64,000 bases of DNA from Parapedobacter koreensis (GTDB lineage Bacteria > Bacteroidota > Bacteroidia > Sphingobacteriales > Sphingobacteriaceae), in the NCBI RefSeq assembly GCF_900109365.1, contig NZ_FNZR01000006.1:186001-250000 (forward strand), read 5' to 3'. Positions 22,375 through 64,000 of this stretch are shown here, one piece after another. Made by a program: the position numbers and the translations under genes. The notes under the pieces are model-generated. The model was given only the letters and a program-made list of their open reading frames with translations, did not search any database and was not told the DNA's origin. Each line of letters opens with the position of its first letter. Position 1 is the first letter of the stretch.

Positions 22375-24867
22375 TTACTCATCACGTAAAGACTCGACCG
22401 GATTGGCCACCGCTGCACGTACCGCCTGCCAGCTCAGCGTGAGTAGGGCAATTATTAGGGCTGCCATGCCCGCCGTGGCAAACATCCACCATTCGATATC
22501 GATGCGGTAGGCAAAATCTTCCAACCATTTGTTCATCATCCACCACGCGATGGGCGAGGCAATGGCAATGGCCATGATGACCAGCTTCACGAAACCCGTG
22601 GAAAGCAACCGCACAATGCCAGCTACTGAAGCGCCCAACACTTTCCGGATGCCGATTTCCTTGGTGCGCTGCTGGATACTGAACGCGCTAAGGGCAAATA
22701 TACCCATAACGGCAATGCCCAATGCAGCGCCTGTAAGCCACGAGGTGAGCACGGCAAAGCGCTCATGTTTTTCCAGCAGCCGTGCAAAATCATCATCGAG
22801 CCACGAATAACGTACCGGAAGTTCAGGTTCCAGCATTTTCCAAAACGTCGTTACAGCTTGTAATGCTTGCTGTGCCTGCCGACCGTCTATCTTGACAAAT
22901 ACAAATTGATGGCCTGAAAAGTTGCGAGGCTCATCCACACCCATCATATACAATTGGGGCAGCACCTCGTTTTCATAACCCGAGAGGTGGCTATCTTTCA
23001 GTACGCCGATGACGCGGTATTCCATTCCCAAAAAACCCACGGTTTTGCCAACAGGATCCTGCCACCCCATCTTTCTTGCCGCAGTCTCGTTGATGACAGC
23101 TGCATCTATCGTATCTCGGGCAAAGGCTGTAGAAAAATCACGACCTTCGACGATAGGCATGCCCATGACGTTAAAATAATCAAAGTTGACCAAGCCAAAT
23201 TGCATAGCCAATTGCTGCCCGCCATCGTATACTGCGGTTTGGACAGCATCGGAATAGGGCAAACCGGGGTAAAGCTGACCCGTAGATACTGTTTTTACAC
23301 CGGGTAGACGGAGCAATTCCTGTTTTACAAAAACCGATCGGTCATCCGCTTGGCCAGGGAAAAGCTTGGTATGCGTAACTTCAATCCGCAATACCTGATC
23401 GGTATCGAAGCCAGCGTCATGATTGCGCATGAAGCGTAGCTGGAGGGCAATGATGATCACACTGATGATGAAGCAGCTTGCGATGCTGTATTGAAAGACC
23501 AACAAACCGTTGCGCAACCAACGGCCCTTTACGGTTTTAGTAATATCGCCATTCAGTACCCGGACAGGTTTGTATTGGGAAAGCACGAACGCTGGATACA
23601 TGCCCGATAGGAGGGTAGTTGCCAGTAGGACACCGACCAATTGTCCAACCAATTGCCAATTTTGCTGGGCATCAAATGCATTCCAAAATACAAGTTTCAA
23701 GCCGAAGGTGTTGTTTATGGCGCTTACTAATATGGCGACCATCGCCACGGCCAATAGCACAGCAAAGACGCATTGGATGAACGATTCGGCCAGAAATTGG
23801 TAGATAAGCTGTTGACGACTGGCACCCATTACTTTGCGTACGCCGGACTCCTTAGCGCGTTTCCCACCCTGAGCAATAGCCATATTGGTGTAGTTGACAC
23901 AGGCGAGCAACAAGACTAGCAGTGCCACTAAAGAAAAGATAGTAACAGGCCGTTGATTAGTAGGATTGAAATCGTAAACGGCCTGTTGTGCAGACCACGC
24001 TTCAAACCCAATGGGCCGGAGATGGATATCCCCGACGGGCTCAAAGAATACACCGAGGCCTGAAATACCGTGCTGTTCGGCAAGCCAATGCACGGGGTCA
24101 ACCGTATTCACAGTTGTTCCAGCGCTTCCATCGGTATATGAAGCCGCATAGTGCAGGGCATAATGTTTGGTTGCTTTTTCTTCCAAAGCAGCTCGGGAAA
24201 CCGTTGGATTCAATCGTACATAGGTGTCGTGGTTGCGCATGAACCAATTGGCTGCAAAGTGTGTGGAGTGATAGGAAAGGCAAATATTAAAATCAAGGTG
24301 TGAGGGCCCCTGCTTTTCAATGACACCTGTGATGGTATAATGCTCTTGCAGGTTGATGGCGAGCCTCTTGCCTATCGGGTCTGCATCGCCGAAGAGCTTG
24401 GTGCTCATTGCTTTTGTAATAACGGCGGTATTGGGTTGGCTAAGTGCTGTGCGACCATTGCCATGGATAAAGCGATAAGGGAACAATGCAAAGAAATTAC
24501 TATCAGCGCTTATCGCCTTCGTTTCATAAAACTCCTGCCCATCCACAGCCACCAAGGTCTCGCCATAGGGAACCCTTACGCGAGATGTCAATTCCACTTC
24601 CGGACATTCTTCAGCCAGAAACGTGCCCAACGGATATTGTACGGAAGGCGATTGCTCCAGCCCGTCTTCAGTCCGCTCGGACACGCCAACGCGATAAATC
24701 TGTTCCAGTCGGGTATCCCAGCGGTCGTAACTTCGCTCTCGGTTGATATATAGCAGCACCAGTACAACTACCGTGAGACCGATGGACAATCCCGCAATGT
24801 TGATGGCAGCATAAACGTTATTGGCCCAAAGGCTGCGCCAGGCGGTTTTGAAATAGTTGTTTAGCAT
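22375..24867 (-). CDS. ABC transporter permease, MacB/FtsX type (last gene of the eight-gene run)
   Basis: 830 residues. Layout: membrane helix 1 (about 21-41), MacB-like periplasmic core (about 45-290), first FtsX membrane block (about 305-440) with RAKESGVRKVMGAS, a helix at about 455-475, second periplasmic core (about 480-690), and second FtsX block (about 705-820) with QRTKEIGIRKVLGAS. It ends in VESLRDE. In this family the permease is coupled to a separate LolD/MacB-type ATPase and acts by mechanotransmission at the inner membrane rather than by forming a classical channel. No ATPase gene is present nearby. It shares the NRERSYDRWD start region with the gene at 27398. Confidence 0.95.
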   Translation of the reverse strand: MLNNYFKTAWRSLWANNVYAAINIAGLSIGLTVVVLVLLYINRERSYDRWDTRLEQIYRVGVSERTEDGLEQSPSVQYPLGTFLAEECPEVELTSRVRVPYGETLVAVDGQEFYETKAISADSNFFALFPYRFIHGNGRTALSQPNTAVITKAMSTKLFGDADPIGKRLAINLQEHYTITGVIEKQGPSHLDFNICLSYHSTHFAANWFMRNHDTYVRLNPTVSRAALEEKATKHYALHYAASYTDGSAGTTVNTVDPVHWLAEQHGISGLGVFFEPVGDIHLRPIGFEAWSAQQAVYDFNPTNQRPVTIFSLVALLVLLLACVNYTNMAIAQGGKRAKESGVRKVMGASRQQLIYQFLAESFIQCVFAVLLAVAMVAILVSAINNTFGLKLVFWNAFDAQQNWQLVGQLVGVLLATTLLSGMYPAFVLSQYKPVRVLNGDITKTVKGRWLRNGLLVFQYSIASCFIISVIIIALQLRFMRNHDAGFDTDQVLRIEVTHTKLFPGQADDRSVFVKQELLRLPGVKTVSTGQLYPGLPYSDAVQTAVYDGGQQLAMQFGLVNFDYFNVMGMPIVEGRDFSTAFARDTIDAAVINETAARKMGWQDPVGKTVGFLGMEYRVIGVLKDSHLSGYENEVLPQLYMMGVDEPRNFSGHQFVFVKIDGRQAQQALQAVTTFWKMLEPELPVRYSWLDDDFARLLEKHERFAVLTSWLTGAALGIAVMGIFALSAFSIQQRTKEIGIRKVLGASVAGIVRLLSTGFVKLVIMAIAIASPIAWWMMNKWLEDFAYRIDIEWWMFATAGMAALIIALLTLSWQAVRAAVANPVESLRDE

Positions 24868-24938
24868 TTTTTTCTTTCTTTGCTTTAAGCGGTATGCTTT
24901 AGGCCTATTGCTTATAGCCTACAGCCTACTGCTGAAAA
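24868..24938. repeat. Class 2 spacer repeat between permease genes
   Basis: A 71-bp spacer of the type TTTGCTTTAAGCGGTATGC, TTTAGGC, TTGCTTATAGCCT, TGCTGAAAATCAC. Nearly the same spacer lies at 34860-34930, and shortened versions at 27350-27397 and 37376-37424. Degenerate 7-base words (TAGGCTT/TAGCCTA) recur inside it. Confidence 0.7.
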
Positions 24939-27323
24939 TCACTCATCTCTCAACGACTCGACCGGATTGGCCACCGCCGCACGTATCGCCTGCCAACTCA
25001 CGGTGAGCAAGGCAACGACCATCGCCACCACGCCTGCCAATGCAAACATCCACCATTGGATGTCGATGCGGTAAGCAAAGTTTTCCAGCCACTTGTTCAT
25101 CGCCCACCAAGCGATGGGTGAGGCGATGACGATAGCGATAAGTATTAGTTTCACAAAATCTTTGGAGAGTAACGTCACGATACCCGACACGGAAGCGCCA
25201 AGTACCTTACGGATACCGATTTCTTTGCGTTTTTGAACAACCGTATACGTGGTCAAGCCGATTAAGCCCAAACAAGCTACGGCGATGGTCAATATAGCAA
25301 ACAGCCCGATAATCCGTGCCAGGTTACTTTCGGTTTTATATTGCCGATCAAAATCATCGTCGAGCATAAAATATTCAAACGGATAACCGGGAAAACGACT
25401 TTTCCAAAAACGTTCAGCATTTTCCAAGGTCGCCTTCAGGTTGTGTCCCTGCGTGGCCAATGCGATATAGTTGTACGCATAGGGTTCGCTGAAAATAAGA
25501 ATCGGATTTAACGGTTGCTGTAGGCCATGCTGATGGTAATCCGCCATTACACCGATGATTTTCCCATTTTCCATGCCTGAAGTATTGATCCCTTTTCCGA
25601 TAGCCTCTTGTGGCTCCCAGCCAATCAGCCGGCATGCGGTTTCATTGATCAACACGCCTCCTGAAGCATCAGTAACGAAATCTTTTGAGAAATCACGCCC
25701 TGCTACCATACGAATGCCAAGCGTTTTTACATAATCTACGTCCGAAGGAATGACTTCCATGGTGAAGCTCTGTCCTTGGGAAAGACCTTCAGGATTGACC
25801 AATTGGCCACTCCACCCTGCTCGCCCGGGAAGGCCTGCTGAAGCGGTTACGGATGTTACGCCCGGAAGCTGTGCCAATTGGTGCTTTACGCTTTCGTAGT
25901 TTTCAATAACTTCACGGAAAGGGGATTTGGCAAGGCTGATAACTGCGACCTGTTCCTGCTCAAAGCCCAAGTCCTTGCCACGCATGTAGTGCAATTGCTT
26001 GAGGCAGATAAAGGTACACGTCACTAAAACCAACGTCACGGTAAATTGGAACGCCACCAGTGCACGGCGAATCCCCATCCCCTTTTGGCCGTCGGAAGAT
26101 TTGTTTTTGATAGCGGATACCGGATGCAGCTTGGACAAGACGAGCGATGGATAGGTACCTGCGAGCACTGTGGTAGCCAATAAGACGATAACACCCCAGG
26201 TGATGACCGCCGGCGAACCCAGCACCGTGTAGTCAACCGTCAATCCTGACCACATGGATACCGTGGGTAATAACAACACAATGAGCCCGACCGCTAACAG
26301 CGAAGCGACTACGACCATCGTCAGCGTTTCAGTTAGAAATTGCCCCGCAAGCGACCGTTTGGAAGCGCCGAGCGTTTTCCGTACCCCTACTTCCTTGCTG
26401 CGATCGGCCTGCAAAGCCGTTGTTAAATTGATAAAATTGATACAGGCCAAAACCAGCAGCGCAATACCGATGGCAGAAAAGATATAGAGCTGCGAGGCGC
26501 TACCCAACGCCCTGTTGAATCCGGAGAGCGGCGAATGCAGGTAAATATCCTTCACCTTTTCCAGTTCATGTGATACATCATAGCCATAGCTCCGGTATTC
26601 ATCACCATTGTAATGCATAGATAGTGTTGCTATTTTTTGCTCCGCCTGTAGCGGATCGGCTCCCGCTTTCAGCAGCACGTAGCAGGTCATGTCCCAAACA
26701 AACCACCTACTCATATCGCCTTCCATGCTTCGCCAAGTGTCGAAAGACAGCAATACATCGACATCGATGTGCGAAGCAGGTAAATCATCCAATATGGCCG
26801 TAACGGTGAACGCAATCGTATCATCCACCATCAGGATTTTGCCGATAGCATCGGTGGATTTAAAGTATTTTTGGGCAGCGGATTTGGTCAGAACAGCGGT
26901 ATAAGGTTTTGCAAGTGCCGTATGGGCGTTGCCGCTCAACAAGTGAAAACTGAATGCTTCCAGAAAGTGCTCCCCGGCAAAAGCAAGGTTGTCGAAATAA
27001 TAGACATCTCCAACTTTGACCGGGGAGTGGGCTTTATACAATGGAACTACATGTTCCACTTCCGGTATCTCCTGTTCGATGACCGGTATCAGCGCCCGTC
27101 CCACCGTCTGTAGTTTGCTTGCGGATGTTTCGGATTGGTACGTAGTGATCACCCGGTACAACCGCTCGGGCTGAAATTGATCTACCCGTATATTTTCATA
27201 TACATAGATGCCGATAATACCAGCAAATGCCAACCCTATCGTGAGTCCGGTGATATTGATGAACGAAAACAGTTTTCGTTTCCATAGGCTCGTTAGCGCT
27301 CTTTTAAGATAAAATTTATTCAT
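24939..27323 (-). CDS. ABC transporter permease, MacB/FtsX type
   Basis: 794 residues. Helix 1 is in FSFINITGLTIGLAFAGIIG, and the two FtsX coupling motifs are RSKEVGVRKTLGAS and KRKEIGIRKVLGAS. The periplasmic part after helix 1 (IRVDQFQPERLYRVITTYQS) is unlike those of the flanking genes. The last FtsX block differs from most others just before the second motif (LGLIGLTTYTVVQKR) but is of the common type after it, which marks where shared sequence begins. It ends VESLRDE. The start codon is 74 bp from the stop of the upstream gene. Confidence 0.95.
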   Translation of the reverse strand: MNKFYLKRALTSLWKRKLFSFINITGLTIGLAFAGIIGIYVYENIRVDQFQPERLYRVITTYQSETSASKLQTVGRALIPVIEQEIPEVEHVVPLYKAHSPVKVGDVYYFDNLAFAGEHFLEAFSFHLLSGNAHTALAKPYTAVLTKSAAQKYFKSTDAIGKILMVDDTIAFTVTAILDDLPASHIDVDVLLSFDTWRSMEGDMSRWFVWDMTCYVLLKAGADPLQAEQKIATLSMHYNGDEYRSYGYDVSHELEKVKDIYLHSPLSGFNRALGSASQLYIFSAIGIALLVLACINFINLTTALQADRSKEVGVRKTLGASKRSLAGQFLTETLTMVVVASLLAVGLIVLLLPTVSMWSGLTVDYTVLGSPAVITWGVIVLLATTVLAGTYPSLVLSKLHPVSAIKNKSSDGQKGMGIRRALVAFQFTVTLVLVTCTFICLKQLHYMRGKDLGFEQEQVAVISLAKSPFREVIENYESVKHQLAQLPGVTSVTASAGLPGRAGWSGQLVNPEGLSQGQSFTMEVIPSDVDYVKTLGIRMVAGRDFSKDFVTDASGGVLINETACRLIGWEPQEAIGKGINTSGMENGKIIGVMADYHQHGLQQPLNPILIFSEPYAYNYIALATQGHNLKATLENAERFWKSRFPGYPFEYFMLDDDFDRQYKTESNLARIIGLFAILTIAVACLGLIGLTTYTVVQKRKEIGIRKVLGASVSGIVTLLSKDFVKLILIAIVIASPIAWWAMNKWLENFAYRIDIQWWMFALAGVVAMVVALLTVSWQAIRAAVANPVESLRDE

Positions 27324-27397
27324 CGACGTTTACAAAGATTACATATTGTTTCTGAGATCAGAAAAACTGCTTATAGCCTATAGCCTACTGCTGAAAA

Positions 27398-29911
27398 TCA
27401 CTCATCCCTCAGCGAATCAACGGGATTAGCCACCGCAGCCCGTATCGCCTGCCAGCTCACCGTCGCCAATGCAATCACCAAGGCTGCCAACCCCGCTGCG
27501 GCAAACATCCACCACTCCATGTCTATGCGGTAGGCGAAGTCCTCCAGCCACGTATTCATTGCCCACCAGGCAATGGGGGAGGCGATGACGATGGCAATCA
27601 ATACCAGCTTTACGAAATCCTTGGAGAGCAGACCTACGATGCCTGCGACGGAGGCTCCCAGCACCTTGCGGATGCCGATCTCCTTCGTACGCTGCTGAGC
27701 GGCAAACGTACTCAATGCAAAAATGCCCATGATGGCGATGGCAAGCGTAATGAGCGTCAGCAAGCTGGTCAGTTTGCTGAATTGCACGTGTTTTTCCATT
27801 AATTTTGAAAACTCATCGTCCAACCAGCTATACCGCATTGGTCCACTGCCATCTACCGTTTTCCATATGGCCGCAATTTTTTCGACGGCCTGTTGGGCGT
27901 CCCTTCCGGAATTCAGCCTGACCAGTAATTGGCGCTTGCCACTGACGATATTTGGAATCACGCCGTTCACGTAGATTTCCGGCCGGATGGCCGTGGTATA
28001 GCCTGCACCGTAACTGTCTTTTACGACTCCGATAATGGTATATTCCCGGCCGATTACCGTCACCTGCTGTCCAACAGGTTGTTCAACTCCCAGTGCCTTT
28101 GCGGTCGTTTCATTGATAATAGCTGCATTGACGGAATCCATCGCATATTGGGTGGAGAAATCTCTCCCTTGGCTGATGGGTGTTCCTACGGTCTCAAAAT
28201 AGTCCAAGCCCACATAATTGGTGCTCAGCGACAGCGTGTCGTTTGCCGGGCCGAAAGCGGCACGCTGGATACTGTGGGAAGGTTGGCCAGGATAGAAGTG
28301 GGTCGTTGCTACAGATTCCACTTCGGGCAAACTCCGGAGGCTATTCATCAGGAACGCGTGTTCATCCAGCGATTGGAAAAAGTTCAGGGGTACGCGCTCG
28401 CCGTTGATCCGCAGGACCTGTTCGCTGTCGAATCCCGGGTCGTTGCGCTGCATGAAACGCACCTGGCCATTCATGATGAAGAGGGAGGTGACAAAGGCTA
28501 CCGCTATGGAAAATTGGACGATGACCAATACGTTTCGCAGGCGTAAACCTCTGGTACCGCTGGCCAGTTCGCCTTTCAGTATCCGGACGGGGCGGTAACT
28601 GGATAAGAGCAATGCCGGATAACCGCCGGCTAATAAAGAAACCATCAGGGTAATGGCACATAGCTGCACCACCAATTGTCCGTTCGCTGCCGCATTGATG
28701 CTGCTCCAAAGCTGCAATTCCAGTCCGAAAGTCGTATTGAGGTAATGGATAAGAATTTGGCTGAATAATATGCCAAGGCATAAAGCAGACACTACTTGGA
28801 TGAACGATTCAAGCAGAAACTGGAAAACCAATTGGCCCCTACTGGCACCAATGACCTTGCGCAGACCGGATTCCTTCGCCCGTTTGTGGCCTTGGGCTAC
28901 CGCGAGGTTTACGTAGTTGATGCAGGCCAAAAACAGGACCGCAATGGCGATGAGGGAAAAGACCACAACGGGAATATGGTTGCCTTTTTCGTAATCACTG
29001 ATGGGATGGTTGGCTGGCGAATCTCTCCAGGGATAGGCTGTGGGTTGGAGGTGAATACCGCTTACCTGTTCGAGTTCTGTGCGGATTTCTGTGATTTCCT
29101 GATTCTTTTCCAGCCATTTCCTGGCGCTTTCGGCCGAAGTGATAGGATCGTCAAAATTTTCTCCTCTTGGAGCGTTTGGGTTTGCGTGGATGGCTTTAGC
29201 CAACTGGAGGGTGTATTGGTCCGTGATCTTTTGCGCTATCTGTGCAGCCTTTGTGTTTTTCTTCAACACGGTATAGGTATAGACCACACTTGCCCACCAA
29301 TTACCGTCATCGGAGATGGACGACACACATAGGTTGAAATTCAGGTGGGAAGGGGCCATTTTTTGAAACACCCCGGTAATGGTATACGGTTGGCTGTTTT
29401 CAATTTTTAAGGTTTTTCCGACAGGGTTTTCATCGCCGAACCATTTTTTGCTCATTTCTTCGCTGATGACTACAGATTGTGGTGCAGCCAGGGCGGTGGC
29501 GGCCTGCCCATACCGGAACCGATAGGGAAAAACGGAAAAAAACAAGCTGTCGGCAGCAAGAAGTTGTTTCTCGTAAAATTGTTCGTTTCCAATTGTTATC
29601 ACCGTTTCCTGCCGTTCTTGCAGCGTGGTTGCGGTTTCCACCTCCGGCAGGCTATGGCGCATAAAATACCCCAAGGCGGGCGGCGCAAAAGGAGAAAATT
29701 CTTGGTCCCCTCCCCAGTTTTTTCCGATGTTTACGCGGTATACCTGTTCCAGCTTGTCGTCCCAGCGGTCATAGCTCCGCTCGCGGTTTACGTAGACCAG
29801 TACGGTGATAAACACCGCCAGTCCCAAGCTCAGGCCGATGGTGTTGAGGGCGGTGTACTTCCGGTTGTTCCATATGCTGCGACACGCGGTTTTGAAATAG
29901 ATCATTATCAT
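27398..29911 (-). CDS. ABC transporter permease, MacB/FtsX type
   Basis: 837 residues, the longest of the set. The start region is NRKYTALNTIGLSLGLAVF and the coupling motifs are RAKESGLRKVIGAS and QRTKEIGIRKVLGAS. The periplasmic part up to residue 300 contains an extra segment (FDDPITSAESARKWLEKNQE). The tail is VDSLRDE rather than VESLRDE. The last 190 or so bases are about 96% identical to those of the gene at 32520 although the two proteins are unrelated in their N-terminal halves beyond general family level. A second ATG (residue 3, MIYFKTA) is an equally good start. Confidence 0.95.
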   Translation of the reverse strand: MIMIYFKTACRSIWNNRKYTALNTIGLSLGLAVFITVLVYVNRERSYDRWDDKLEQVYRVNIGKNWGGDQEFSPFAPPALGYFMRHSLPEVETATTLQERQETVITIGNEQFYEKQLLAADSLFFSVFPYRFRYGQAATALAAPQSVVISEEMSKKWFGDENPVGKTLKIENSQPYTITGVFQKMAPSHLNFNLCVSSISDDGNWWASVVYTYTVLKKNTKAAQIAQKITDQYTLQLAKAIHANPNAPRGENFDDPITSAESARKWLEKNQEITEIRTELEQVSGIHLQPTAYPWRDSPANHPISDYEKGNHIPVVVFSLIAIAVLFLACINYVNLAVAQGHKRAKESGLRKVIGASRGQLVFQFLLESFIQVVSALCLGILFSQILIHYLNTTFGLELQLWSSINAAANGQLVVQLCAITLMVSLLAGGYPALLLSSYRPVRILKGELASGTRGLRLRNVLVIVQFSIAVAFVTSLFIMNGQVRFMQRNDPGFDSEQVLRINGERVPLNFFQSLDEHAFLMNSLRSLPEVESVATTHFYPGQPSHSIQRAAFGPANDTLSLSTNYVGLDYFETVGTPISQGRDFSTQYAMDSVNAAIINETTAKALGVEQPVGQQVTVIGREYTIIGVVKDSYGAGYTTAIRPEIYVNGVIPNIVSGKRQLLVRLNSGRDAQQAVEKIAAIWKTVDGSGPMRYSWLDDEFSKLMEKHVQFSKLTSLLTLITLAIAIMGIFALSTFAAQQRTKEIGIRKVLGASVAGIVGLLSKDFVKLVLIAIVIASPIAWWAMNTWLEDFAYRIDMEWWMFAAAGLAALVIALATVSWQAIRAAVANPVDSLRDE

Positions 29912-29940
29912 TTTATTTTTTTAGACACTAGATATTAAAT

Positions 29941-30031
29941 ATTAGACATTAGACTGGATTGTCCTTGTTCTTTTTCCATTGGGATCTTGCGTTTACGTGA
30001 TTTATTCATCGCGCAAAGACTCGACTGGATT
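29941..30031. repeat. 91-bp exact direct repeat, copy 1
   Basis: Identical to 32459-32549. It covers the spacer (ATTAGACATTAGACTGGATT onward) and the last codons of the permease gene ending at 30002. The two copies flank exactly one permease gene. Confidence 0.9.
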
Positions 30032-32458: not shown

Positions 32459-32549
32459 ATTAGACATTAGACTGGATTGTCCTTGTTCTTTTTCCATTGG
32501 GATCTTGCGTTTACGTGATTTATTCATCGCGCAAAGACTCGACTGGATT
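32459..32549. repeat. 91-bp exact direct repeat, copy 2
   Basis: Identical to 29941-30031, 2518 bp away. It spans the spacer and the last codons of the permease gene ending at 32520. Outside the copies the neighbouring sequences differ (C versus A at the next base, then further changes). Confidence 0.9.
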
Positions 32550-37375: not shown

Positions 37376-37424
37376 TTTTTTTCTTGCTTTAGGCAATAAG
37401 CTTTAGGCTTATCGCTTGTAAAAA

Positions 37425-42466: not shown

Positions 42467-42483
42467 AGCAGTTATGCTACCAA
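42467..42483 (-). promoter_or_regulatory. sigma-54-type -24/-12 promoter of the permease run
   Basis: On the minus strand TTGGTAGCATAACTGCT has GG and GC separated by exactly 10 bases and the TGCT ending typical of -12. The predicted start point is near 42456, about 63 bases before the ATG at 42393. An overlapping TATTTTTG (minus strand, 42481-42488) could serve the primary sigma factor instead, but it has no -33 TTG. Confidence 0.65.
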
Positions 42484-42534: not shown

Positions 42535-42552
42535 GTGTTCGAAAACGAACAC
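42535..42552. promoter_or_regulatory. Upstream activator site for a sigma-54 enhancer-binding protein
   Basis: GTGTTCGAAAACGAACAC is a perfect palindrome (7-base arms, 4-base A centre), about 87 bases upstream of the predicted start point. The near edge is 54 bases from the -24 GG, exactly as at 1036-1053. Confidence 0.65.
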
Positions 42553-42576
42553 TTGTTGTTCATTTGCGGACAGTCC

Positions 42577-43262: not shown

Positions 43263-43500
43263 GCTGACCGATGAAATCTTATATCGGAAAAGGTGGCGGG
43301 CATTATCAAATAGCGATGGGCCGCGGACCTTGTTCCCCATCGAAGGCCGTAGGAAGCCGCTTAGCGAGAACAAGAGCCAGCCCATCGCTACCCGCAAAGG
43401 TAGGGAATGAGCGTTGGACTCCTGTCCTTGCGCTAATGGAAATTTCCTACGTTTTCGATGGCAAGTTTCAGTGTCAAACACCAAATAATTTCAAGACAGA
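43263..43500. other. Structured non-permease sequence joined to the remnant
   Basis: No credible gene. Nested inverted repeats are visible: AGCGATGGGC (43312-43321) with GCCCATCGCT (43380-43389), and inside it CTTGTTC with GAACAAG. A small hairpin CTACC-CGCAAA-GGTAG follows. This could be a non-coding RNA, the end of a mobile element or a MITE-like insertion. Its left edge coincides with the break point of the truncated permease at 43262/43263. Confidence 0.45.
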
Positions 43501-54842: not shown

Positions 54843-54957
54843 TTTTTTAGATGTTAGACAACAGATATTAGACACTGGACTTGCTGACTCCGGACTTGCG
54901 GACTTCGCCTCCGGACCAAAATTACTCATTCCCCAACTTTCCTTTTCCTTCCATCGC

Positions 54958-55162: not shown

Positions 55163-57559
55163 TCACTCATCCCGCAGGCTATTCACCGGGTTAGCCACCG
55201 CAGCGCGGATGGCCTGTCCGCTCACGGTGAGCAGTGCAAGGGTTACCGCCCCGAGCCCAGCCACGGCAAACATCCACCACTGGATGTCTATGCGGTAAGC
55301 GTAGTCCTCCAACCATTTACTCGTGGCCCACCATGCAATGGGCGAGGCAATCACCACGGCAATCACCACCAGCATCACAAATTCCTTGGAGAAGAGGGCC
55401 AGGATATTGGATATCGAGGCTCCCAATACTTTGCGGATGCCGATTTCCTTGGTGCGCTGGTAAGCCATCAGTGTAGCCAATCCAAACAGGCCGAGACAGC
55501 TGATGAAGATGGCCACCCCGGTCGTGTAGTTGATGATTTTGGCCATGCGGTGTTCCTGCGTGTACATGCGTTCGATGACCTCATCGTAAAAACGATAGGC
55601 AAAGGGCGTCTCGGGATAGATGGCCTTCCAGTCATCGGCAAAACGCTCAATGGTCGAAGCCCACCTTTTCGAGGCGGAGGCGTGCAGCTTGATGGTAATC
55701 GTTGAAGCATTTTCCGGAATACCCATCCTGATTTGCAACGGCCGGTTTTCCATTTTGAAGTTGAATACGTGGAAATCCCCCACCACACCTACGATGACTT
55801 GCTCGTCCTCCGCTTCACCGATCAGTTTACCGAGCGCCTCTTCCGCCGAGCCAAATCCAAAGGCTTTCACCGCTGTTTCATTCAGCATGATTTCGCTGCT
55901 TTGCTGCCCTGCGAAAGGCTGGCGTCCGGCCAGCAGCTTTACTTCGTATAGGTTCATCCAGTTTTCATCGATGTTTTTTACGAGGAGGTCGGCACGGATA
56001 ATCCCCGAAGGTCCATTATACTCGACGGGATGGGAAAACACACCCGCTCCAAGGGGAATTTCGCCTATCGATACGCCCGCTACTTCGGGGTGTTTCAATA
56101 AGGCTTGCTGCAAGACCTGTTGCCTGCTTAGCGCCATGTCGTTTTTTTGTCTGGTATCGGTGATGTCCAGGGTGATAATGGCATCTTTGTTGAATCCCAA
56201 ATCCTTATGTAGGGTATAGCGGAGCTGGAGGCCTACAATGAGGGCACCGATTATGAAAATCTGCGCGATGACGAACTGGAAGACAATTAGCATTCGCCGG
56301 AACACCAGTCCGCCGCCCTGTTGCCGATGGTCTACCTGCCCTTTCATCATTTTTACCGTATTTACCTTGGTGAGCAACCAACTGGGATAGATGCTTGATA
56401 GGCCGGTGATAACCAATATGAGGGCTGTCAAGAACAACGCGATACCTGAATAGTCGTAATAGCCAGACAACCCATCGGGGAAATAATCGGCAAACAGGCG
56501 GATGATTAACCCGTGTAGAAGAAAAGCAAGCAAAAGGGCCAGAAAGGTAATGCATAGTGTCTCGCCCATGAAACGCAGCACCAGCTGGCGCGACCGGCTG
56601 CCCAACGTTTTCCGTATCCCGATTTCCCGGGTGCGCTGAGGCAATATGGCCGTGCTGAGATTTACATAATTAATAATGGCCAGTAGGAGTAAGAAAGCAG
56701 CGATACCGGCTAAGCCGTAAAGGACGTTTTTATTGGCCGTACGGTGGTGCGGACTGTAATAGTCTGACACAAAATGCCTTTCGGCCACAGGGATGAAGGT
56801 GTACGAGTAGCTGGATTGGAAACGCTCGAAATAATCGGCGTTCCGTTTTGTGTTGATGGCGTTGATTTGGGACAGTACATTGGCCTGCGAGGTGCCGGGG
56901 TGTAATTTCAGGAAAAGTAAGCAGTTATTTCGCCATCCGAACTCCAGGTCGCTGGGCCATTCGCTTTCGGTAATCCGGAAAAACTCCTGTGCATCAAACG
57001 AGGTGTTGCCCGCCAGATTTTCCACCACGCCCGAGATGGTCATGGTTATTGTATCGCGGTAAGTGATGGTTTTTCCCATCAACTCCGAGGGTTGCAACCC
57101 AGGATAGTGATATTCGGCACGGCTTTGGGTCAGCACCACATCATGCGGCCCTCGGAGGGCCGTGGCCGGACTACCGGCCAGCCATCGGTAAGGTACCATG
57201 TCGAAATAGGAGGGAAGTACCGCTACTTGGTCCTTGAAGGCATCGCTTTTCCCGTAGTCCCTGTAGTACATGGGGATGATGGCTTCCACGCCTGTCACCT
57301 CGTTTTCGATGATCGGTGCGAGACCCATGGCTACAGCAGTGACGCCACTTTCCTGGCTATGGGAGCGTTGTTTCACGGCCAGTTGCACATAGTCGTTTAG
57401 GTTGGGCAACCCCTGGTCGTAGCTCAACTCGTAAGTCACCAACCGGTAGACGACGAAACTGGCGCAGAGGCCAATGCTCAATCCGAGGATATTCAGCGCG
57501 GTAAACAAGCGATTTCGCCACAGGTGCCGCAAAGTGGTTTTTAAGTAGCTCCCAATCAT
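55163..57559 (-). CDS. ABC transporter permease, MacB/FtsX type
   Basis: 798 residues. The start is MIGSYLKTTLRHLWRNRLFT. Coupling motifs are RTREIGIRKTLGSR and QRTKEIGIRKVLGAS, the second followed by ISNILALFSKEFVMLVVIAV. It ends VNSLRDE. The first periplasmic part (YDQGLPNLNDYVQLAVKQRS) is again unique. It is followed after the stop by hairpin-element copies 2 and 1 and preceded by copy 3 in the upstream spacer. Confidence 0.95.
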   Translation of the reverse strand: MIGSYLKTTLRHLWRNRLFTALNILGLSIGLCASFVVYRLVTYELSYDQGLPNLNDYVQLAVKQRSHSQESGVTAVAMGLAPIIENEVTGVEAIIPMYYRDYGKSDAFKDQVAVLPSYFDMVPYRWLAGSPATALRGPHDVVLTQSRAEYHYPGLQPSELMGKTITYRDTITMTISGVVENLAGNTSFDAQEFFRITESEWPSDLEFGWRNNCLLFLKLHPGTSQANVLSQINAINTKRNADYFERFQSSYSYTFIPVAERHFVSDYYSPHHRTANKNVLYGLAGIAAFLLLLAIINYVNLSTAILPQRTREIGIRKTLGSRSRQLVLRFMGETLCITFLALLLAFLLHGLIIRLFADYFPDGLSGYYDYSGIALFLTALILVITGLSSIYPSWLLTKVNTVKMMKGQVDHRQQGGGLVFRRMLIVFQFVIAQIFIIGALIVGLQLRYTLHKDLGFNKDAIITLDITDTRQKNDMALSRQQVLQQALLKHPEVAGVSIGEIPLGAGVFSHPVEYNGPSGIIRADLLVKNIDENWMNLYEVKLLAGRQPFAGQQSSEIMLNETAVKAFGFGSAEEALGKLIGEAEDEQVIVGVVGDFHVFNFKMENRPLQIRMGIPENASTITIKLHASASKRWASTIERFADDWKAIYPETPFAYRFYDEVIERMYTQEHRMAKIINYTTGVAIFISCLGLFGLATLMAYQRTKEIGIRKVLGASISNILALFSKEFVMLVVIAVVIASPIAWWATSKWLEDYAYRIDIQWWMFAVAGLGAVTLALLTVSGQAIRAAVANPVNSLRDE

Positions 57560-57601
57560 TTTTAGACAATATACATTAGACTTTTTGAATGCACCATCGC
57601 T

Positions 57602-57679: not shown

Positions 57680-57685
57680 CCTACT

Positions 57686-60055
57686 TCACTCATCTCTCAA
57701 TGACTCCACCGGATTAGCCACGGCCGCCTTGATCGCCTGATAGCTTACGGTTAGGATCGCGATGACAATAGCAATTAAACTTCCGAGAATAAACGTAAGC
57801 GCACTTAATTCTACCTTATAAGCGAAATTAGCCAACCATTGTTGCATGAGATAAAGGGCGATGGGACAAGCAATCAAGATGGCTATACATACAAGCAATA
57901 CAAAATTTTTACCCAATAGTCGGACAATACTGAAGATGCTGGCCCCCAATACCTTTCGGATTCCAATTTCTTTGATGCGTGTTTGCGCCGCATGCGTTGC
58001 CAAGGCAAATAAACCGAGTGCCGATATGAATATCGCTATACCCGAAAAGATATTGAACAATAAACCTGTCCGTTTTTCAGCCTTGTATAGATTATCGAAC
58101 TGCGCATCGATGAACGTATAGCTGAAAGGTGTATCCGATGGATAGCGATTATATATCGCCTCCAGCGCGTTGATGGCTTGTTGCGCTTGGGCAGTCGTCG
58201 TTTTAACGTACAAGGTGCCTGCTCCCCAACGTGTCCAGAACACCATCGGACCTATTTTCTCTCTGACGGATTTAAAATGGAAATCTTCCACCACACCGAT
58301 GATTTGACCGGGGACATTGTGAAAGCTCATTTGGGCACCTACATATGGCGGTTTCAAGCCCATCTCTTTTGCCAGGGTTTCATTGATGATGTAGTGTGAA
58401 GAATCTGCTGGCAGGCCACTGAAATTCGAGCCTTCAAGGAAAGGAATATCCATCAGTGGAAGAAAGTCCTTATCGATGGTAGCTTGGGATACGACCAAGG
58501 GGTTGTCTTTCGATTTGCCCGGCCATTCGATATCACTGGTAGAATGAAAGTAGTCGATCAGGTTCCAGATCCCCGATAGCGATACACCCTGTATCGCCGG
58601 ATTACTCGTCAGTTCTGCACGGATGGCATCCATGTGGTTGTATGCCTCTCCCGGCAGACCGAGGGTCAGGACATGGTCTTTATCATATCCAAGATTGATT
58701 TGCCGGATGAATTCAAGCTGGTTCCTGATGACCAGCGTACATACCATGAGCGTAACCGCGATGGTAAACTGGAAAACGACCAGCACTTTTCGCAATGTGT
58801 TGGAAGAGATCCGTCTGGTGGTTTTCCCCTTTAGCGATTCAACCGGGTTGAAAGCGGAGAGCTGGAGCGCCGGATAAATGCTGGATAGACACAGCGTCAC
58901 GAAGACAGCTGCACCGATATACTTCCATAAGGCACCATTGCTGAGCGAATAATGCAGGGATTTCTGGGCGATTTCGCTATATCCGGGTGCCAACAAAAAG
59001 ATAAGACCTAGTGCAATAAGTAACGAGAGGACAAACACAACGACTGTTTCCAGGACAAACTGCATGAAGAGCGCCGACCTGCTGGCACCGATGACCTTAC
59101 GTATGCTCACTTCTTTTGCCCGGTCTATGGCTCTTGCCGTGCTGAGATTAACGTAGTTCACCGCCCCGATGATCAATAAAAGTGCTGCGATTGCCCCGAA
59201 AATCTGCACCATCCAAAGCCCGGCTTTGTTCCCGTCAGCAGCAATTAAGTGTACGATTTCCAGCGGAGCCAACATAAAAGCCGTGGAGTTCTCGCCGTTG
59301 CGGGCCTCGGTGTACGACGCGGTGATGGATTTACCAATGGCAAGCGGGTCGTTATTGGGTTGCGCCTTGATGTAGGTTTGAAAACTGTAGTTACCCAAAT
59401 CCTCATCGATGGTTTTCCATTGGCCGTTGCCGCCCCATTTGGTAAAGCGCTGGGCATGGTATCCCAACGGGGCGACGACATCAAATTGGATAGAAGAATT
59501 CGCCGGCACATCTTTTAAAATACCGACAACAGCAAAGAGGTCTTCGCCGTATCGGAAAGTTTTACCGATTGCCTGTTGGCTGCTGAAAAGTTTCTCCGCA
59601 GTGGATTCAGTGATCAATGCGTTGGTAGGATTCGTTTGAAAATGGACAAGTGAACCTTCGAGCAACGGAAAGTTAAACATATCGAAGAAGTTGCTGTCTA
59701 CGTAGGAAATTTTAATCCCGGTAACCGGACGCTTAAGGGCATCGTTGACCACCGTCGAATAATTGTCCTGTGAAACGCGCGTGGCCAGCTCCACCTGAGG
59801 CGCGTTTTGTGCAAATCTCGCGATAGGTCCGGGAGAACTTGTCCATATCGATCCGTTCGTTTCTGGATTGAGATGCGAATTTACGGTATAGAGTTGTTCA
59901 TAATCAGGGTGGAATTTGTCAAAACTACCTTCATCCTGTACCCACAAAATAATCAATATCGACGTAGCAAGGCTGATGGATAACCCTAAGATATTGACCA
60001 CGGTGTAGAATTTTTTCTTCGTTAAACTCCTTAATACTGTTTTTAGCCTGTTCAT
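57686..60055 (-). CDS. ABC transporter permease, MacB/FtsX type
   Basis: 789 residues. The start is MNRLKTVLRSLTKKKFYTVV. Coupling motifs are RAKEVSIRKVIGAS and TRIKEIGIRKVLGAS, the second followed by IFSIVRLLGKNFVLLVCIAI. The last block (VELSALTFILGSLIAIVIAI) differs from the common type but ends AAVANPVESLRDE. Its N-terminal half (LATSILIILWVQDEGSFDKF) is closest to the gene at 30002. Confidence 0.95.
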   Translation of the reverse strand: MNRLKTVLRSLTKKKFYTVVNILGLSISLATSILIILWVQDEGSFDKFHPDYEQLYTVNSHLNPETNGSIWTSSPGPIARFAQNAPQVELATRVSQDNYSTVVNDALKRPVTGIKISYVDSNFFDMFNFPLLEGSLVHFQTNPTNALITESTAEKLFSSQQAIGKTFRYGEDLFAVVGILKDVPANSSIQFDVVAPLGYHAQRFTKWGGNGQWKTIDEDLGNYSFQTYIKAQPNNDPLAIGKSITASYTEARNGENSTAFMLAPLEIVHLIAADGNKAGLWMVQIFGAIAALLLIIGAVNYVNLSTARAIDRAKEVSIRKVIGASRSALFMQFVLETVVVFVLSLLIALGLIFLLAPGYSEIAQKSLHYSLSNGALWKYIGAAVFVTLCLSSIYPALQLSAFNPVESLKGKTTRRISSNTLRKVLVVFQFTIAVTLMVCTLVIRNQLEFIRQINLGYDKDHVLTLGLPGEAYNHMDAIRAELTSNPAIQGVSLSGIWNLIDYFHSTSDIEWPGKSKDNPLVVSQATIDKDFLPLMDIPFLEGSNFSGLPADSSHYIINETLAKEMGLKPPYVGAQMSFHNVPGQIIGVVEDFHFKSVREKIGPMVFWTRWGAGTLYVKTTTAQAQQAINALEAIYNRYPSDTPFSYTFIDAQFDNLYKAEKRTGLLFNIFSGIAIFISALGLFALATHAAQTRIKEIGIRKVLGASIFSIVRLLGKNFVLLVCIAILIACPIALYLMQQWLANFAYKVELSALTFILGSLIAIVIAILTVSYQAIKAAVANPVESLRDE

Positions 60056-60106
60056 ATCCTATTTTTTATGATTTAAACCGTACCCGCTTTACAAATATAA
60101 AATCCG

Positions 60107-60457
60107 CTCGTCCCGCAAATTCATCCTTCCCCAAAATGGCTTTACGTTCACTGTAGACACGACCTAGGAGACGTCAGCGAAGCGCTACGGATCCAGACGT
60201 GGAGCAGCGGACTAAAACATCCCTTACTCCTCCCGCAAATTCATCCTTCCCCACAATGACTTACGTTCGCTGCAGACACGACCTAGGAGACGTCAGCGAA
60301 GCGCTACGGATCCAGACGTGGAGCAGCGAACTAAAACATCCCTTACTCCTCCCGCAAATTCATCCTTCCCCACAATGGCTTACGTTCGCTGCAGACACGA
60401 CCTAGGAGACGTTAGCGAAGCGCTACGGATCCAGACGTGGAGCAGCGAACGTAAGCC
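60107..60457. repeat. Three tandem 119-bp units, each a hairpin element plus a permease-tail fragment
   Basis: The hairpin elements are at 60141-60217, 60260-60336 and 60377-60457; the core GACCTAGGAG recurs at 60161, 60280 and 60399, exactly 119 bases apart. Each unit also has CTCGTCCCGCAAATTCATCC or CTCCTCCCGCAAATTCATCC, which on the minus strand reads as the codons N-L-R-(D/E)-E, the last two with a stop (60224-60244 and 60343-60363), i.e. the end of the adjacent permease gene. The last unit's stem (60377-60392 with 60442-60457) is a perfect 16 bp. Confidence 0.88.
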
Positions 60458-60461
60458 TACC

Positions 60462-62855
60462 TCACTCCTCCCGCAATGTATCTGCCGGATTTGCTTTTGC
60501 CGCCTTAAACGTATGGAACCCTACCGTCAATGCCGCCACAGCCAATACCGCCAGTGCTGCAATAAGGAAGACCCAGCCATTCAACGAAATGCGATAAGCA
60601 AACCCCTGCAACCACGCATTGGCCGCCCACCAACCCAATGGGATAGCAATCGTCACGGCGAGAGCAATCAATCGCATAAAACCCTTGCTCAACAACAAGC
60701 CAAGGTCAGCAATGCTCGCCCCCAGCACCTTACGGATGCTGATTTCTTTCATGCGCTGGCCCACCAGAAAGGCGGTCAATGCGAAAAGGCCCATGACAGC
60801 AATGGCGATGGCCGTGAAGCCGAAGAAATTGATAATCCGTTGTAAGCGGATATACGAAGCAAACAGTTGCTGAAAATTATCATCCAAAAACGAATAGCGA
60901 ATTGGGAAAGCCGGCTCAATATTTTTCCACGCCTGTTCGATGGCCGATACGGAATTACCGATATCGTCGCCAGCGAGTTTTACCAGCACCGCTCCGGCCG
61001 ATTGGAACACACAAGCATCATTGCCAATGGTATAGGCCACCGGCTTGATAGACTGCTCAAACCCGGATACGTTGAAATCCCGCACGACACCCACCACCTG
61101 TATCGAAACACTATCGCAACCGGGAAAATGGATGATAGCCCCAATGGGATCTTCGAGGTTCAGTTTCCGTGCACCAGCTTCGTTGATGATGGCACTGCGC
61201 GTATGTTGGTCGGCATAGCTATCGTCAAACAGGCGGCCCTGTACGAGGTCAATGCCCAGGGTCTTGAAATATTGTGCACTCACTTTAACGGAAGACATGC
61301 GATGCACTTCACCTGCATGTTTGAAGGCCCACGTGGAAGTATCGACATACACATCGCCCGGTACCGCCGTTGTTTTCGACACTTCCAAGACACCCGGCAG
61401 GCGCAATAGCGCACTCCGCATGGTTTCGAACCCAGCCTCCCGGGTCTTGAAGTCAGCCTCGATACGCAAGACCTGTTCGCCGGAGAAACCCCTCTCACGA
61501 GTCTGCATGTACTGCATCTGCTTGCTGATGACCAGCGTACCAATCACGAAAAAAGCCGAGACCACAAATTGCACGACGATGAGCGCATTGCGGAAAGCAA
61601 GTCCTTTGGTACCCCGCGTAAGGTCTCCTTTCAGTACATATACGGGGTTATAACGGGAGAGGAATACGGCTGGATACAATCCCGAAAGGACAATCACCGC
61701 AACCAAGCATAAGGCCGCTTGTAAGGCAATGGACGATGCGTTGCTTGCCTCCCAAAATGCCAGCTGGACATTAAATGCCGTATTGAAATAAGGTAGGGCA
61801 AGGCTGACCAACAGCGATGCAAGCCCCAAACTGACGGCACATTGTAGGGCAATTTCACCCAAAAACTGCCAAAGCAGTTGCTTACGATTCGAACCCAGCA
61901 CTTTCCGTACACCTACCTCTTTGGCCCGCCGGATGGAAGCAGCAATGGATAAGTTGGAAAAGTTGATGGCTCCAGCAAGGAGCAACAGTGCGGCGAGCAC
62001 AAGCAGTATGGAAACCGTGGTAAAGTTGCTATCCGCATGCTTCGGGAAGTTATGCAGGTCCTGCACCGCATCCACAAATAATCCAGCTTGATGTCCGGCT
62101 TTGCGGAAGTCCTGGAAAGACACGTTGTCTTTTTTCAGGCGTTGTTCGTAGTACAATTCGTCTACCTGCCCTTCGAGCACGGCCACCGGCACAACTTGAT
62201 GGGTTTTTACATAAGTCATAAAGGACGTATTTCCCCATTGCTCCCTTGAACTGTCGATAAACTGTGTCCGTGCCACGACGGCTGCGTGAAGGTGCGAGGG
62301 ACCATCGGGTTCCTTCATGACACCAGTTACCTCCAGTTCGAAGGCATCATGGACCTTGATGGTTTTGCCGATTGGATCACTGTCGCCGAACAGCTTCTTG
62401 GCCACGGACTCCTCGATGACGGTGGTGTTCGGTTTGTCCAGCGCGGTCGCAGCATGGCCTTGGACCAATTGGAAAGGAAATACCTTGAAAAATGAAGAAT
62501 CGGCCTCCACGAAGTTCGGCTGGTAAATTTTACGATCGCCGACAGCTAAGAGCACTTCATAGTCTTCATAAGGTGATATCCGCGTGGCATGTGCTATCAG
62601 TGGCAGTTGGTTCTTGAGAAAGTCGGGCAACGGCGCATGAGTGCGCTTCATGATATCCTCGTCTGTCCGTTCGGATACCTTATACACTTTTCCCAATTCG
62701 GCATCCCAACGGTCGTAGTTCAGCTCATGGTTGAGGTACAATAGGATAACGAGGAAACTGGCCAGCCCAATGGCTAGGCCAGCGATGTTGATGGCACTGT
62801 ATACCTTATTCTTCCAAAGGTTGCGCCACGCGATTTTGATGTAGCTTTTTATCAT
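60462..62855 (-). CDS. ABC transporter permease, MacB/FtsX type, with divergent C-terminal block
   Basis: 797 residues. The start is MIKSYIKIAWRNLWKNKVYS. Coupling motifs are RAKEVGVRKVLGSN and QRMKEISIRKVLGAS. The last block (LPLGWW-like IAIPLGWWAANAWLQGFAYR, then TVGFHTFKAAKANP) is distinct and ends ADTLREE, unlike the SLRDE of the rest. The orphan tails in the tandem repeats after its stop copy this ending. The N-terminal half (NHELNYDRWDAELGKVYKVS) is related to the 22375/27398 pair. Confidence 0.95.
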   Translation of the reverse strand: MIKSYIKIAWRNLWKNKVYSAINIAGLAIGLASFLVILLYLNHELNYDRWDAELGKVYKVSERTDEDIMKRTHAPLPDFLKNQLPLIAHATRISPYEDYEVLLAVGDRKIYQPNFVEADSSFFKVFPFQLVQGHAATALDKPNTTVIEESVAKKLFGDSDPIGKTIKVHDAFELEVTGVMKEPDGPSHLHAAVVARTQFIDSSREQWGNTSFMTYVKTHQVVPVAVLEGQVDELYYEQRLKKDNVSFQDFRKAGHQAGLFVDAVQDLHNFPKHADSNFTTVSILLVLAALLLLAGAINFSNLSIAASIRRAKEVGVRKVLGSNRKQLLWQFLGEIALQCAVSLGLASLLVSLALPYFNTAFNVQLAFWEASNASSIALQAALCLVAVIVLSGLYPAVFLSRYNPVYVLKGDLTRGTKGLAFRNALIVVQFVVSAFFVIGTLVISKQMQYMQTRERGFSGEQVLRIEADFKTREAGFETMRSALLRLPGVLEVSKTTAVPGDVYVDTSTWAFKHAGEVHRMSSVKVSAQYFKTLGIDLVQGRLFDDSYADQHTRSAIINEAGARKLNLEDPIGAIIHFPGCDSVSIQVVGVVRDFNVSGFEQSIKPVAYTIGNDACVFQSAGAVLVKLAGDDIGNSVSAIEQAWKNIEPAFPIRYSFLDDNFQQLFASYIRLQRIINFFGFTAIAIAVMGLFALTAFLVGQRMKEISIRKVLGASIADLGLLLSKGFMRLIALAVTIAIPLGWWAANAWLQGFAYRISLNGWVFLIAALAVLAVAALTVGFHTFKAAKANPADTLREE

Positions 62856-62902
62856 TTTTTAGACATTAGACAACAGACTCGCCTATCCTCACTTCTTTTC
62901 TT

Positions 62903-64000
62903 TTACTCATCCCTCAACGACTCGACCGGATTGGCTACCGCGGCCCGTATTGCTTGTCCACTTATTGTGAGCAACGCAATCACCGCCGCCACCAAACCCG
63001 CTATAATAAACATCCACCATTCAATGGCAATGCGGTAGGCGAAATCTTCCAGCCAGCTGTTCATTGCCCACCACGCGATGGGCGAGGCAATAAGGATGGC
63101 CAAAAGCACCAGCCGAATAAAGCCTGCCGAGAGGAGGTAGACGACACTCATCACAGAAGCACCCAGCACTTTCCGTACCCCAATCTCTTTTACCCGCTGC
63201 GCAGCTGTAAATGTTGCAAGGCCGAACAGCCCCAAACACGATACGATTAACGCCAAAACAGCAAAGCATGAGGCAAGCCTGCTCACCAGCTGCTCACTGT
63301 GGTATAATTTCGAAAATTCCCAGTCCGAAAATTGATAAGTAAAGGGGATGGCTGGATTTAAGGTTTTATTTACCTGTTCAAGGCCTTTCAGAGCAGGCGC
63401 GGTTTGCCCCGGCGCAATCCGGACGAGAATGGTGCCCCAACCCCAGTTTTCGTCCAACCGTACGATGAGCGGTTCGATGGTATGGTGCATGGAGTTGAAA
63501 TGGAAATCTTCCAATACGCCAATCACTTGCCCTTGCCTTTGATCCCAGCCCAGGGATTGGCCAAGGGGCTGTTGAAGACCTATGGCACGTGCGGCGGTTT
63601 CATTGATAAGGAATGCCGCGGTATCTGCGCCAAACGCGCGGGAAAAATCACGCCCTTCCTTCAGCCGGAGGCGCATGGTGCTCACGAAATCATAGCCGAC
63701 TACCGCATCGGTAAACGATAGGGTAGTGCCCGGTGGTTTGCTGGGCCAACTGACTCCCCACGTGTGGTGTTCGATATACGTGGGGGAGTTGCGCATTTTC
63801 GATACGGAGAGCACGCCAGGCACTGCAGAAGCTTGTGCTTTAAATGCTTCATAATTGGTGATCAAATTGCCTTCTATGGGGATGTATAGCAAGTTGTCGC
63901 GGTCATACCCAATCGTTGTATGCTGGATAAAATCCATTTGCCGCTGGAAGACCAGCATAGCTGCTATGAGGATGATGGAGAGGCTAAACTGGAATACAAC
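62903..64000 (-). CDS. ABC transporter permease, MacB/FtsX type (3' part, cut by window edge)
   Basis: About 365 C-terminal residues are visible, beginning in the middle helix (VVFQFSLSIILIAAMLVFQR). The second periplasmic core and last FtsX block follow, with QRVKEIGVRKVLGAS and VMSVVYLLSAGFIRLVLLAI. It ends VESLRDE. The open frame continues off the right edge, so the array goes on beyond the window. The stop is 47 bp from the ATG of the next gene, the shortest spacer in the array. Confidence 0.93.
   Translation of the reverse strand, partial: VVFQFSLSIILIAAMLVFQRQMDFIQHTTIGYDRDNLLYIPIEGNLITNYEAFKAQASAVPGVLSVSKMRNSPTYIEHHTWGVSWPSKPPGTTLSFTDAVVGYDFVSTMRLRLKEGRDFSRAFGADTAAFLINETAARAIGLQQPLGQSLGWDQRQGQVIGVLEDFHFNSMHHTIEPLIVRLDENWGWGTILVRIAPGQTAPALKGLEQVNKTLNPAIPFTYQFSDWEFSKLYHSEQLVSRLASCFAVLALIVSCLGLFGLATFTAAQRVKEIGVRKVLGASVMSVVYLLSAGFIRLVLLAILIASPIAWWAMNSWLEDFAYRIAIEWWMFIIAGLVAAVIALLTISGQAIRAAVANPVESLRDE

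Follow-up and report, generated by a model that had tools for sequence, protein, structure and literature searches.

A 64,000-nucleotide stretch of the Parapedobacter koreensis genome (positions 186,001 to 250,000 of contig NZ_FNZR01000006.1, hereafter C11; genome 5.55 Mb, 27 contigs), called the window below, lies within a long array of genes for internally duplicated MacB/FtsX-type permeases. This array, described here from computational analysis, is probably the multiplied permease subunit of one MacAB-TolC-like machine; it is neither ATPase-less nor a chance cluster. Gene order, the co-occurrence of the permeases with two small ATPases (A and B), the pattern of conservation along the permeases, an operator with fixed spacing in Parapedobacter and the permease fold carry this reading.

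Each permease is a fused double unit (two MacB membrane modules, eight predicted transmembrane helices, two periplasmic domains and two coupling helices) on which, as proposed, a dimer of a small LolD/MacB-type ATPase would dock. ATPases A, encoded at the array head, and B, encoded at the tail in several relatives and elsewhere in most Parapedobacter, would serve the permeases in trans. The periplasmic domains would take differing cargo either out of the periplasm or out of the inner membrane's outer leaflet, and ATP-driven movement, as in MacB, would export it through a common HlyD adaptor and TolC channel; as a guess, the cargo is toxic peptides or hydrophobic compounds. A σ54-type response regulator probably turns the parts on together via a palindrome and a GG box.

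Extent of the array and its ATPases

The window contains 13 complete permease genes (779–837 aa), all on the minus strand, and all 13 have MacB_PCD and FtsX modules above the Pfam cut-offs, the combination that serves as the criterion for MacB-type (type VII) exporters. The initial annotation had described 13 complete genes of one architecture on one strand, two genes cut by the window ends and one remnant, and was right on each count; the remnant (128-aa open reading frame, 43098–43484, minus strand) was recognized with a hidden Markov model (HMM) of 40 paralogues. The figure of 13 holds for the window, but the array is larger than that annotation had it: 40 full-length permeases (779–843 aa as called, all minus strand) lie on C11 between 165,891 and 327,104, a span of about 161 kb rather than 41 kb, in a main run of 34 (C11:165891–292119) and a second run of six (C11:311626–327104). 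Their pairwise identities range from 24 to 74% (median 33%), and against these 40 full-length genes the HMM recognizes one remnant on the contig. Four more array-type permeases are dispersed off C11 (C12:298899, C16:100798, C16:103256, and C14:580737), bringing the total to about 44; the permease numbers of the first look are loose candidates (64 in this genome vs. 44 full-length array-type genes). A separate 851-aa permease on C14 has its own adjoining ATPase and a different C-terminal tail.

None of the 59 ATP-binding cassette ATPase matches falls inside C11:186001–250000, and no adaptor is present among the window genes scanned, a scan that some small open reading frames fell outside. The annotation's statement that the 64 kb hold neither gene is thus correct for the window but not for the array, since ATPase A is encoded 42 kb past the window edge and an HlyD gene heads the second run; both are missing from the window because it cuts the array short. 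The gene of ATPase A (224 aa, C11:292257–292931) immediately precedes the first permease of the main run, and among solved structures its product is closest mainly to ATPases of the MacB and LolD types. The HlyD-family adaptor gene is at C11:327176–328576; the expectation that no ATPase would be closely linked to the runs beyond the window therefore fails for the main run, while the second run is headed by an adaptor and has no ATPase. ATPase B (C12:301473–302138), 53% identical to A, is encoded behind a single permease. Walker A, Walker B with its Glu, and the His loop are intact in the A and B orthologues listed, and this genome's A and B have the signature LSGGQQQ. From linkage and co-occurrence, we infer that A and B are the cognate ATPases of the permeases.

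The co-occurrence extends over 41 genomes (this one and 40 relatives, designated by G numbers). Twenty have strong matches to the duplicated-permease profile (best E-value 1e-78 or better), and all 20 carry A and/or B: B (63% or more) is found in 20/20 and A (69% or more) in 19/20, the exception being G022. The 21 genomes without strong permease matches (best E-value 1e-48 or worse) have neither ATPase (best A identity 54% or less, no B match at 1e-60). The line between strong and weak permease matches (1e-60) was chosen after the results, in the gap between the groups at ≤1e-78 and ≥1e-48, and completeness is just 76 and 71% for two of the 21 negatives, G015 and G016. With A at the head of the array and A and/or B in each of these 20 strong-permease genomes, the annotation's picture of an array without any ATPase, perhaps with ATPase-independent roles, is not supported. 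In an even draw across the phylum, 38 of 118 genomes have strong permease matches. Of the 113 genomes new to the sample, the scan for A, with a line at 59%, covered 80 (33 permease-positive, 47 negative). A lies at or above that line in 25 of the 33 positives, among them every one of the 22 with two or more permease matches, and 23 of the 25 have it at ≥67%. One of the 47 negatives, G060, has an A-like gene at 61%; another, G102, has a 56% match, below the line and possibly B-type. In nine Parapedobacter genomes, 5–6 A-like ATPases (E-value under 1e-44) accompany 13–64 loose permease candidates.

ATPase A is 96–98% identical to the A of seven named Parapedobacter species (96–98% in 8/8 other Parapedobacter genomes) and 84% identical to that of the Mucilaginibacter genome G021. 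At the 80 A loci that are the best matches of the scan, a set skewed to close relatives, same-strand permeases follow A in 77, with a gap of less than 300 nt in 70 (five overlapping as called); the three exceptions are two contig ends and P. soli. An HlyD gene lies upstream of A at 72 of the 80 loci (within 1.5 kb and on the same strand at 52), and the eight without one are the seven Parapedobacter loci and a locus whose upstream part extends over just 3.3 kb. At 69/80 loci the genes upstream of A include one for a response regulator bearing a σ54 interaction domain (domains from two examples), and a TolC gene near enough in sequence to be detected is present at 34/80; five of the mapped relatives have a TolC-family gene at, or close to, the head or tail of the array. 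In Parapedobacter the head is split, with HlyD heading a short second run in G003, G004, G005, G007, and the window's genome; G001, from the same genus, has the unbroken order regulator, TolC, HlyD, permease, A, permeases, and B on one contig.

In G001, G009, G020, and G023 a single run begins with A and ends with B; in G021 one run ends in B and another starts with A, and in G022 B stands at the tail and A is absent. In the other Parapedobacter genomes B is located elsewhere. A single permease precedes it in G003, G005, G006, G007, G008, and the window's genome; in G004 the permease ahead of it is split into two open reading frames, and in the 15 kb seen in G002 there is none. By coordinates, permeases bracketed by A and a tail ATPase (about 52% like A) occur also in G072, G128, and G139, which belong to other families. 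In G014, of the same family, and in G025 and G038, of other families, regulator, HlyD, and A stand together with no permease in the 20–50 kb seen around them, an arrangement suggestive of action in trans. The idea that ATPase A is confined to arrays was dropped in view of G008, G014, G025, and G038. At the P. soli locus (L018, G008:C78:74105–74779), A retains an operator 112 nt upstream and its usual DUF6266 neighbor, and no array stands there. Paired ATPase genes 40 to ~620 bp apart, 68–71 and 55–57% like A, were seen in G078 (C24), G089 (C16), and G152 (C28); an A-B pair would fit them.

Fold, conservation and turnover of the permeases

The 797-aa permease at window positions 60462–62855 was modeled from 107 aligned sequences (mean predicted local distance difference test score 89.8, predicted template modeling score 0.86). 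The model has two MacB-like halves, each with four transmembrane-length helices, a periplasmic domain after its first helix and a short helix between its second and third (residues 311–319 and 702–710). The sequence search found no solved structure of the whole permease, the best matches being a Porphyromonas domain (3is6) and MacB. By fold, the nearest solved structure is E. coli YbbP (Z 25.2, root-mean-square deviation 8.9, 669 residues aligned), followed by BceB (Z 21.4); MacB and the Lol permeases match single halves, LolC/LolE with Z of about 15. In profile comparison MacB (structure 5nik) is matched at an E-value of 1.3e-27 vs. 7.6e-4 for LolE.

Conservation is distributed very unevenly along the protein. 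Among the 40 paralogues, mean pairwise identity is 0.66 and 0.84 in the two coupling segments and 0.83 in the C-terminal tail, 0.40 in the remaining membrane part, and 0.23–0.25 in the two periplasmic domains; the coupling-helix value was reached by 0 of 302 circular shifts of the mask. These values support the earlier suggestion that a common membrane engine carries a repertoire of periplasmic parts that diverge. Conserved coupling helices with a variable periplasm are the pattern to be expected if the partner ATPase stays the same and the cargo sites vary.

In 182 orthologue-like interspecies pairs amino acid identity is 65–85% by region, with an identity at fourfold synonymous sites of 0.38–0.42 (0.26–0.29 expected from base composition); high protein identity with synonymous sites nearly randomized indicates purifying selection on the permeases. 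The last ~100 codons are far more alike than the rest of the gene, and in two C11 permeases (316511 and 319001) the last 330 bases are practically identical (1.00, rounded). In distant pairs, fourfold synonymous identity over the last 24 codons is 0.418 within a genome vs. 0.378 between genomes, against about 0.30 over most of the gene, suggesting that some gene conversion may occur at the 3′ ends. Because the within-genome excess is only modest, gene conversion was rejected as the chief source of this 3′-end conservation, and selection is taken to be its main cause.

The repertoire itself turns over between species. A reciprocal best match better than any paralogue was found for 19 (G004), 18 (G007), 15 (G003), and 9 (G005) of the 40 permeases in sister species and for 7/40 in G021; these counts are lower bounds, some array stretches of each genome having been compared. 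An old, static cluster with one-to-one orthologues, the pattern named beforehand as speaking against a changing repertoire, is not seen, since only 7–19 of the 40 have such a counterpart in the stretches compared from each relative; the layout of the locus is constant while its permeases change.

Many permease starts are immediately preceded by degenerate tandem repeats of period 7 (for example at window 62856–62878 and 29921–29954), with units such as GTCTAAT GTCTGTT GTCTAAT GTCTAAA and GCTATAA GCAATAA GCCTAAA; lag-7 identity is 0.41 in the 40 permease leaders vs. 0.28 for 72 further genes on the contig. One 23-base form of the repeat has 15 matches in the genome at ≤3 mismatches, nine of them on C11. 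A tandem repeat of 119 bp (window 60107–60476, 3.1 copies, 94% alike) lies between two permeases, and similar stretches occur in other spacers.

A shared palindrome and a σ54-like box

The palindrome TGTTCG-N4-CGAACA, often GTGTTCGATATCGAACAC and often with a weaker second copy 21–22 bp away, occurs at ≤1 mismatch at 10 sites in 226 kb of C11 (0.3 in shuffles), and these sites are upstream of a permease (eight), of A, or of HlyD, the last measured from its usual 416-aa start. Further palindromes precede B and the closest TolC homologue (C11:106394–107722), and the HlyD and TolC genes in this genome thus share the predicted operator with A, B, and the permeases. The permease palindromes cut the array into sub-runs. 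Within the window a perfect copy, TGTTCGAAAACGAACA (42536–42551, 0 mismatches), is accompanied 21 bp away by a weaker one (42557–42572, 2 mismatches) and precedes eight minus-strand permeases (22375–42393), of which the 813-aa permease at 39952–42393 is the first. The others are, in order of coordinates, 830 aa (22375–24867), 794 aa (24939–27323), 837 aa (27398–29911), 811 aa (30002–32437), 779 aa (32520–34859), 821 aa (34931–37396), and 798 aa (37483–39879).

In six Parapedobacter genomes a TGG lies at a fixed offset from the palindrome (51–56, or 72–78 from the upstream copy, with a mode of 53) at 47 of 48 sites, where shuffles give 5.7 with a maximum of 12; the lone exception is not upstream of a permease. 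A G[C/T] follows ten bases past the GG box at 8/12 sites of this genome. In the window, predicted σ54-like boxes of the form TTGG-N10-GC (minus strand) are found at 42468–42483, at the fixed spacing of 53 bp from the operator of the eight-permease sub-run, and at 969–984, likewise 53 bp from a predicted operator (1037–1052, 1 mismatch) upstream of the minus-strand permease cut by the window start (1–941). The GG box was found by inspection after anchoring on the palindrome and was not predicted beforehand. Bacteroidota housekeeping promoters (TTTG..TAnnTTTG) were considered as well and dropped, with 1/40 before the permeases.

Because the usual neighbor of A is a σ54-type response regulator, the simplest reading is that this regulator binds the palindromes and fires σ54 promoters. 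A shared switch, as predicted from the operator, has good support within Parapedobacter; outside the genus it is patchy or different. In G014, for example, the operator stands before B and, in two of three stretches, before the dispersed permeases, and the third has none near its permease.

Alternative readings, known systems and neighboring genes

Several observations weigh against one shared, co-regulated machine. A is lacking in 8/33 permease-positive phylum genomes, each with one permease match, and in G022 it is absent despite ~40 permease candidates, B alone being present; conversely, P. soli keeps A without an adjoining array. In three of those eight (G109, G120, and G130) an ATPase gene lies within ~0.4 kb of the permease, and a lone permease with an adjoining ATPase argues for a different, dedicated type. 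The genomes share ancestry, so that the counts are non-independent, though many families are involved. Coupling helices are conserved across the FtsX superfamily at large, and their conservation here is consequently no proof by itself of one shared ATPase. As for the switch, the boxes behind A, B, HlyD, and permease 319001 of this genome depart from the usual G[C/T] spacing, and an E. coli-type −12 element is found upstream of HlyD in 0/71 cases, so that we infer rather than observe the use of σ54. The operator lies upstream of HlyD at 30/80 A loci and anywhere at 44/80, and 25 of the 87 sites at these loci lie elsewhere; it shows no clear excess in the arrays of G021 (4 sites at ≤2 mismatches, 3.3 in shuffles) or G020 (2 vs. 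0.7), and none was found near the regulator, HlyD, and A genes of G025, G038, and G014 or near the dispersed permeases that this genome has on C16 and C14. Nor was a regulator gene found on the C11 stretches examined.

Other explanations fit the data less well. It is unlikely that only the permeases beside A or B are energized and that the rest are ATPase-free sensors or decoys, such as flux sensors acting with nearby histidine kinases in the manner of BceAB with BceS. The rank of BceB as second-closest fold would agree with this, as would the histidine kinases in and beside the array (window 1093–4785 and C11:164268–165833), but coupling helices and tail are the most conserved parts in all 40 paralogues, even those more than 100 kb from A, and the dispersed permeases of G014, which have no linked ATPase, share the operator type of B in two of three stretches. 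The usual presence of an HlyD-type adaptor upstream of A bears on a Lol-like alternative, in which each permease would sort or extract one class of lipoproteins or lipids for the outer membrane without TolC. Bacteroidota are rich in surface lipoproteins, and LolC/LolE are among the fold matches; even so, we consider this scheme improbable given that adaptor, the TolC-family genes at or near the array in five relatives, the operator of this genome's closest TolC homologue, and the better profile match to MacB than to LolE. Mostly neutral amplification, with tandem duplication via shared 3′ ends and repeat spacers and little functional meaning, could draw on the similarity of the last 24 codons, the period-7 spacers, and the high turnover. 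It is nevertheless very improbable, for 40 full-length genes stand against one recognized remnant, orthologue-like pairs keep 65–85% identity with nearly randomized synonymous sites, and the predicted sub-run promoters are kept in six Parapedobacter genomes.

With the array read as the permease subunit of one machine, a broader proposal can be put forward tentatively, as a possibility somewhat short of an even chance: in several Bacteroidota families, orphan duplicated permeases would be interchangeable cargo heads of a single tripartite machine with one adaptor, one channel, two ATPases acting in trans (possibly an A-B pair that engages the two unequal permease halves), and one σ54-type regulator that turns all parts on together, and their repertoire would turn over between species as receptor repertoires do.

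Among known families, the acidobacterial duplicated orphan permeases (ADOP, TIGR03434) are likewise matched over their full length of ~800 aa (e.g., 8–803 of 803), with internal duplication and large paralogous families; the best score here is 365 bits against a cut-off of 622.3, and none of the 41 genomes and none of the 118 phylum genomes is above it. The ADOP family is described as lacking ATPase genes beside the permeases; here, in contrast, A is followed by permeases at 77/80 A loci. In the one report found to mention ADOP by name (PMC11573002), RAST labels give 28 and 33 copies in two Dyadobacter genomes. The likeness to MacAB-TolC consists in the MacB membrane and periplasmic modules, the LolD/MacB-type ATPase and, as putative components, the HlyD-type adaptor and TolC; the differences are a separate ATPase gene, an internally duplicated single-chain permease, and tens of permeases per adaptor and ATPase. 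DarB, the permease of the darobactin exporter (NF038008), is a duplicated permease of similar length that belongs to one dedicated export cluster; the best score among five permeases scanned is 136.7 bits, below the cut-off of 700. According to a report on YbbP, that protein is one fused pseudo-symmetric permease to which two copies of a separate ATPase bind via two coupling helices, and an extra transmembrane pair links its halves (PMC12646458). The fused double fold is shared with the permeases here, but YbbP has ten transmembrane helices including the linking pair, whereas the model has eight of transmembrane length, and YbbAP comprises one permease and one ATPase, with TesA, rather than tens of permeases. 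By membership criteria the permeases are thus not TIGR03434, not MacB proper, not YbbP, and not DarB; the system probably works like a MacB/YbbP-type exporter. Multitask ATPases that serve several transporters are described for type I importers, namely MsmK and MsmX (PMC7658222); those systems are importers, whereas the permeases here are MacB-type and number in the tens. No description of ATPase-headed, co-regulated permease arrays was found in the literature searched, which lay outside most subscription journals and all preprints, so that one may be in print.

On this reading, large families of duplicated permeases annotated as orphans are assigned probable ATPases along with an adaptor, a channel, and a common switch, and the operator motif allows regulon mapping in Parapedobacter and some relatives. 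If the proposal is true, the idea of one ATPase for many transporters, so far applied to importers of sugars, would also hold for exporters of the MacB type and on a far larger scale.

The remaining permeases of the window, all on the minus strand, are 787 aa (48161–50524), 826 aa as called (52449–54929; from an upstream start, with the core beginning at about residue 30), 798 aa (55163–57559), and 789 aa (57686–60055), together with the modeled one. The gene cut at the window start has MacB_PCD and was called in full (C11:184461–186992) from an upstream TTG, with a likely ATG at window position 941; the gene cut at the window end (62903–64000) is 798 aa in full (C11:248903–251299).

A block of other genes of ~19–21 kb (window 1093–20309) splits the array and encodes a 1230-aa propeller histidine kinase, two LytTR response regulators, a tetratricopeptide-repeat histidine kinase, an AraC regulator, and an OmpA-like protein; homologues of several of these genes occur within or next to sister-species arrays. 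Proteins of 475 aa (20632–22059) and 496 aa (50594–52084) encoded between permeases have no Pfam match, and four sister species have homologues of the former in their array stretches. X-Pro dipeptidyl-peptidase (S15) genes are found twice, at C11:174904–176778, inside the main run, and C11:328593–330470, upstream of the second-run HlyD, with further peptidases nearby; these enzymes are possibly linked to peptide cargo.

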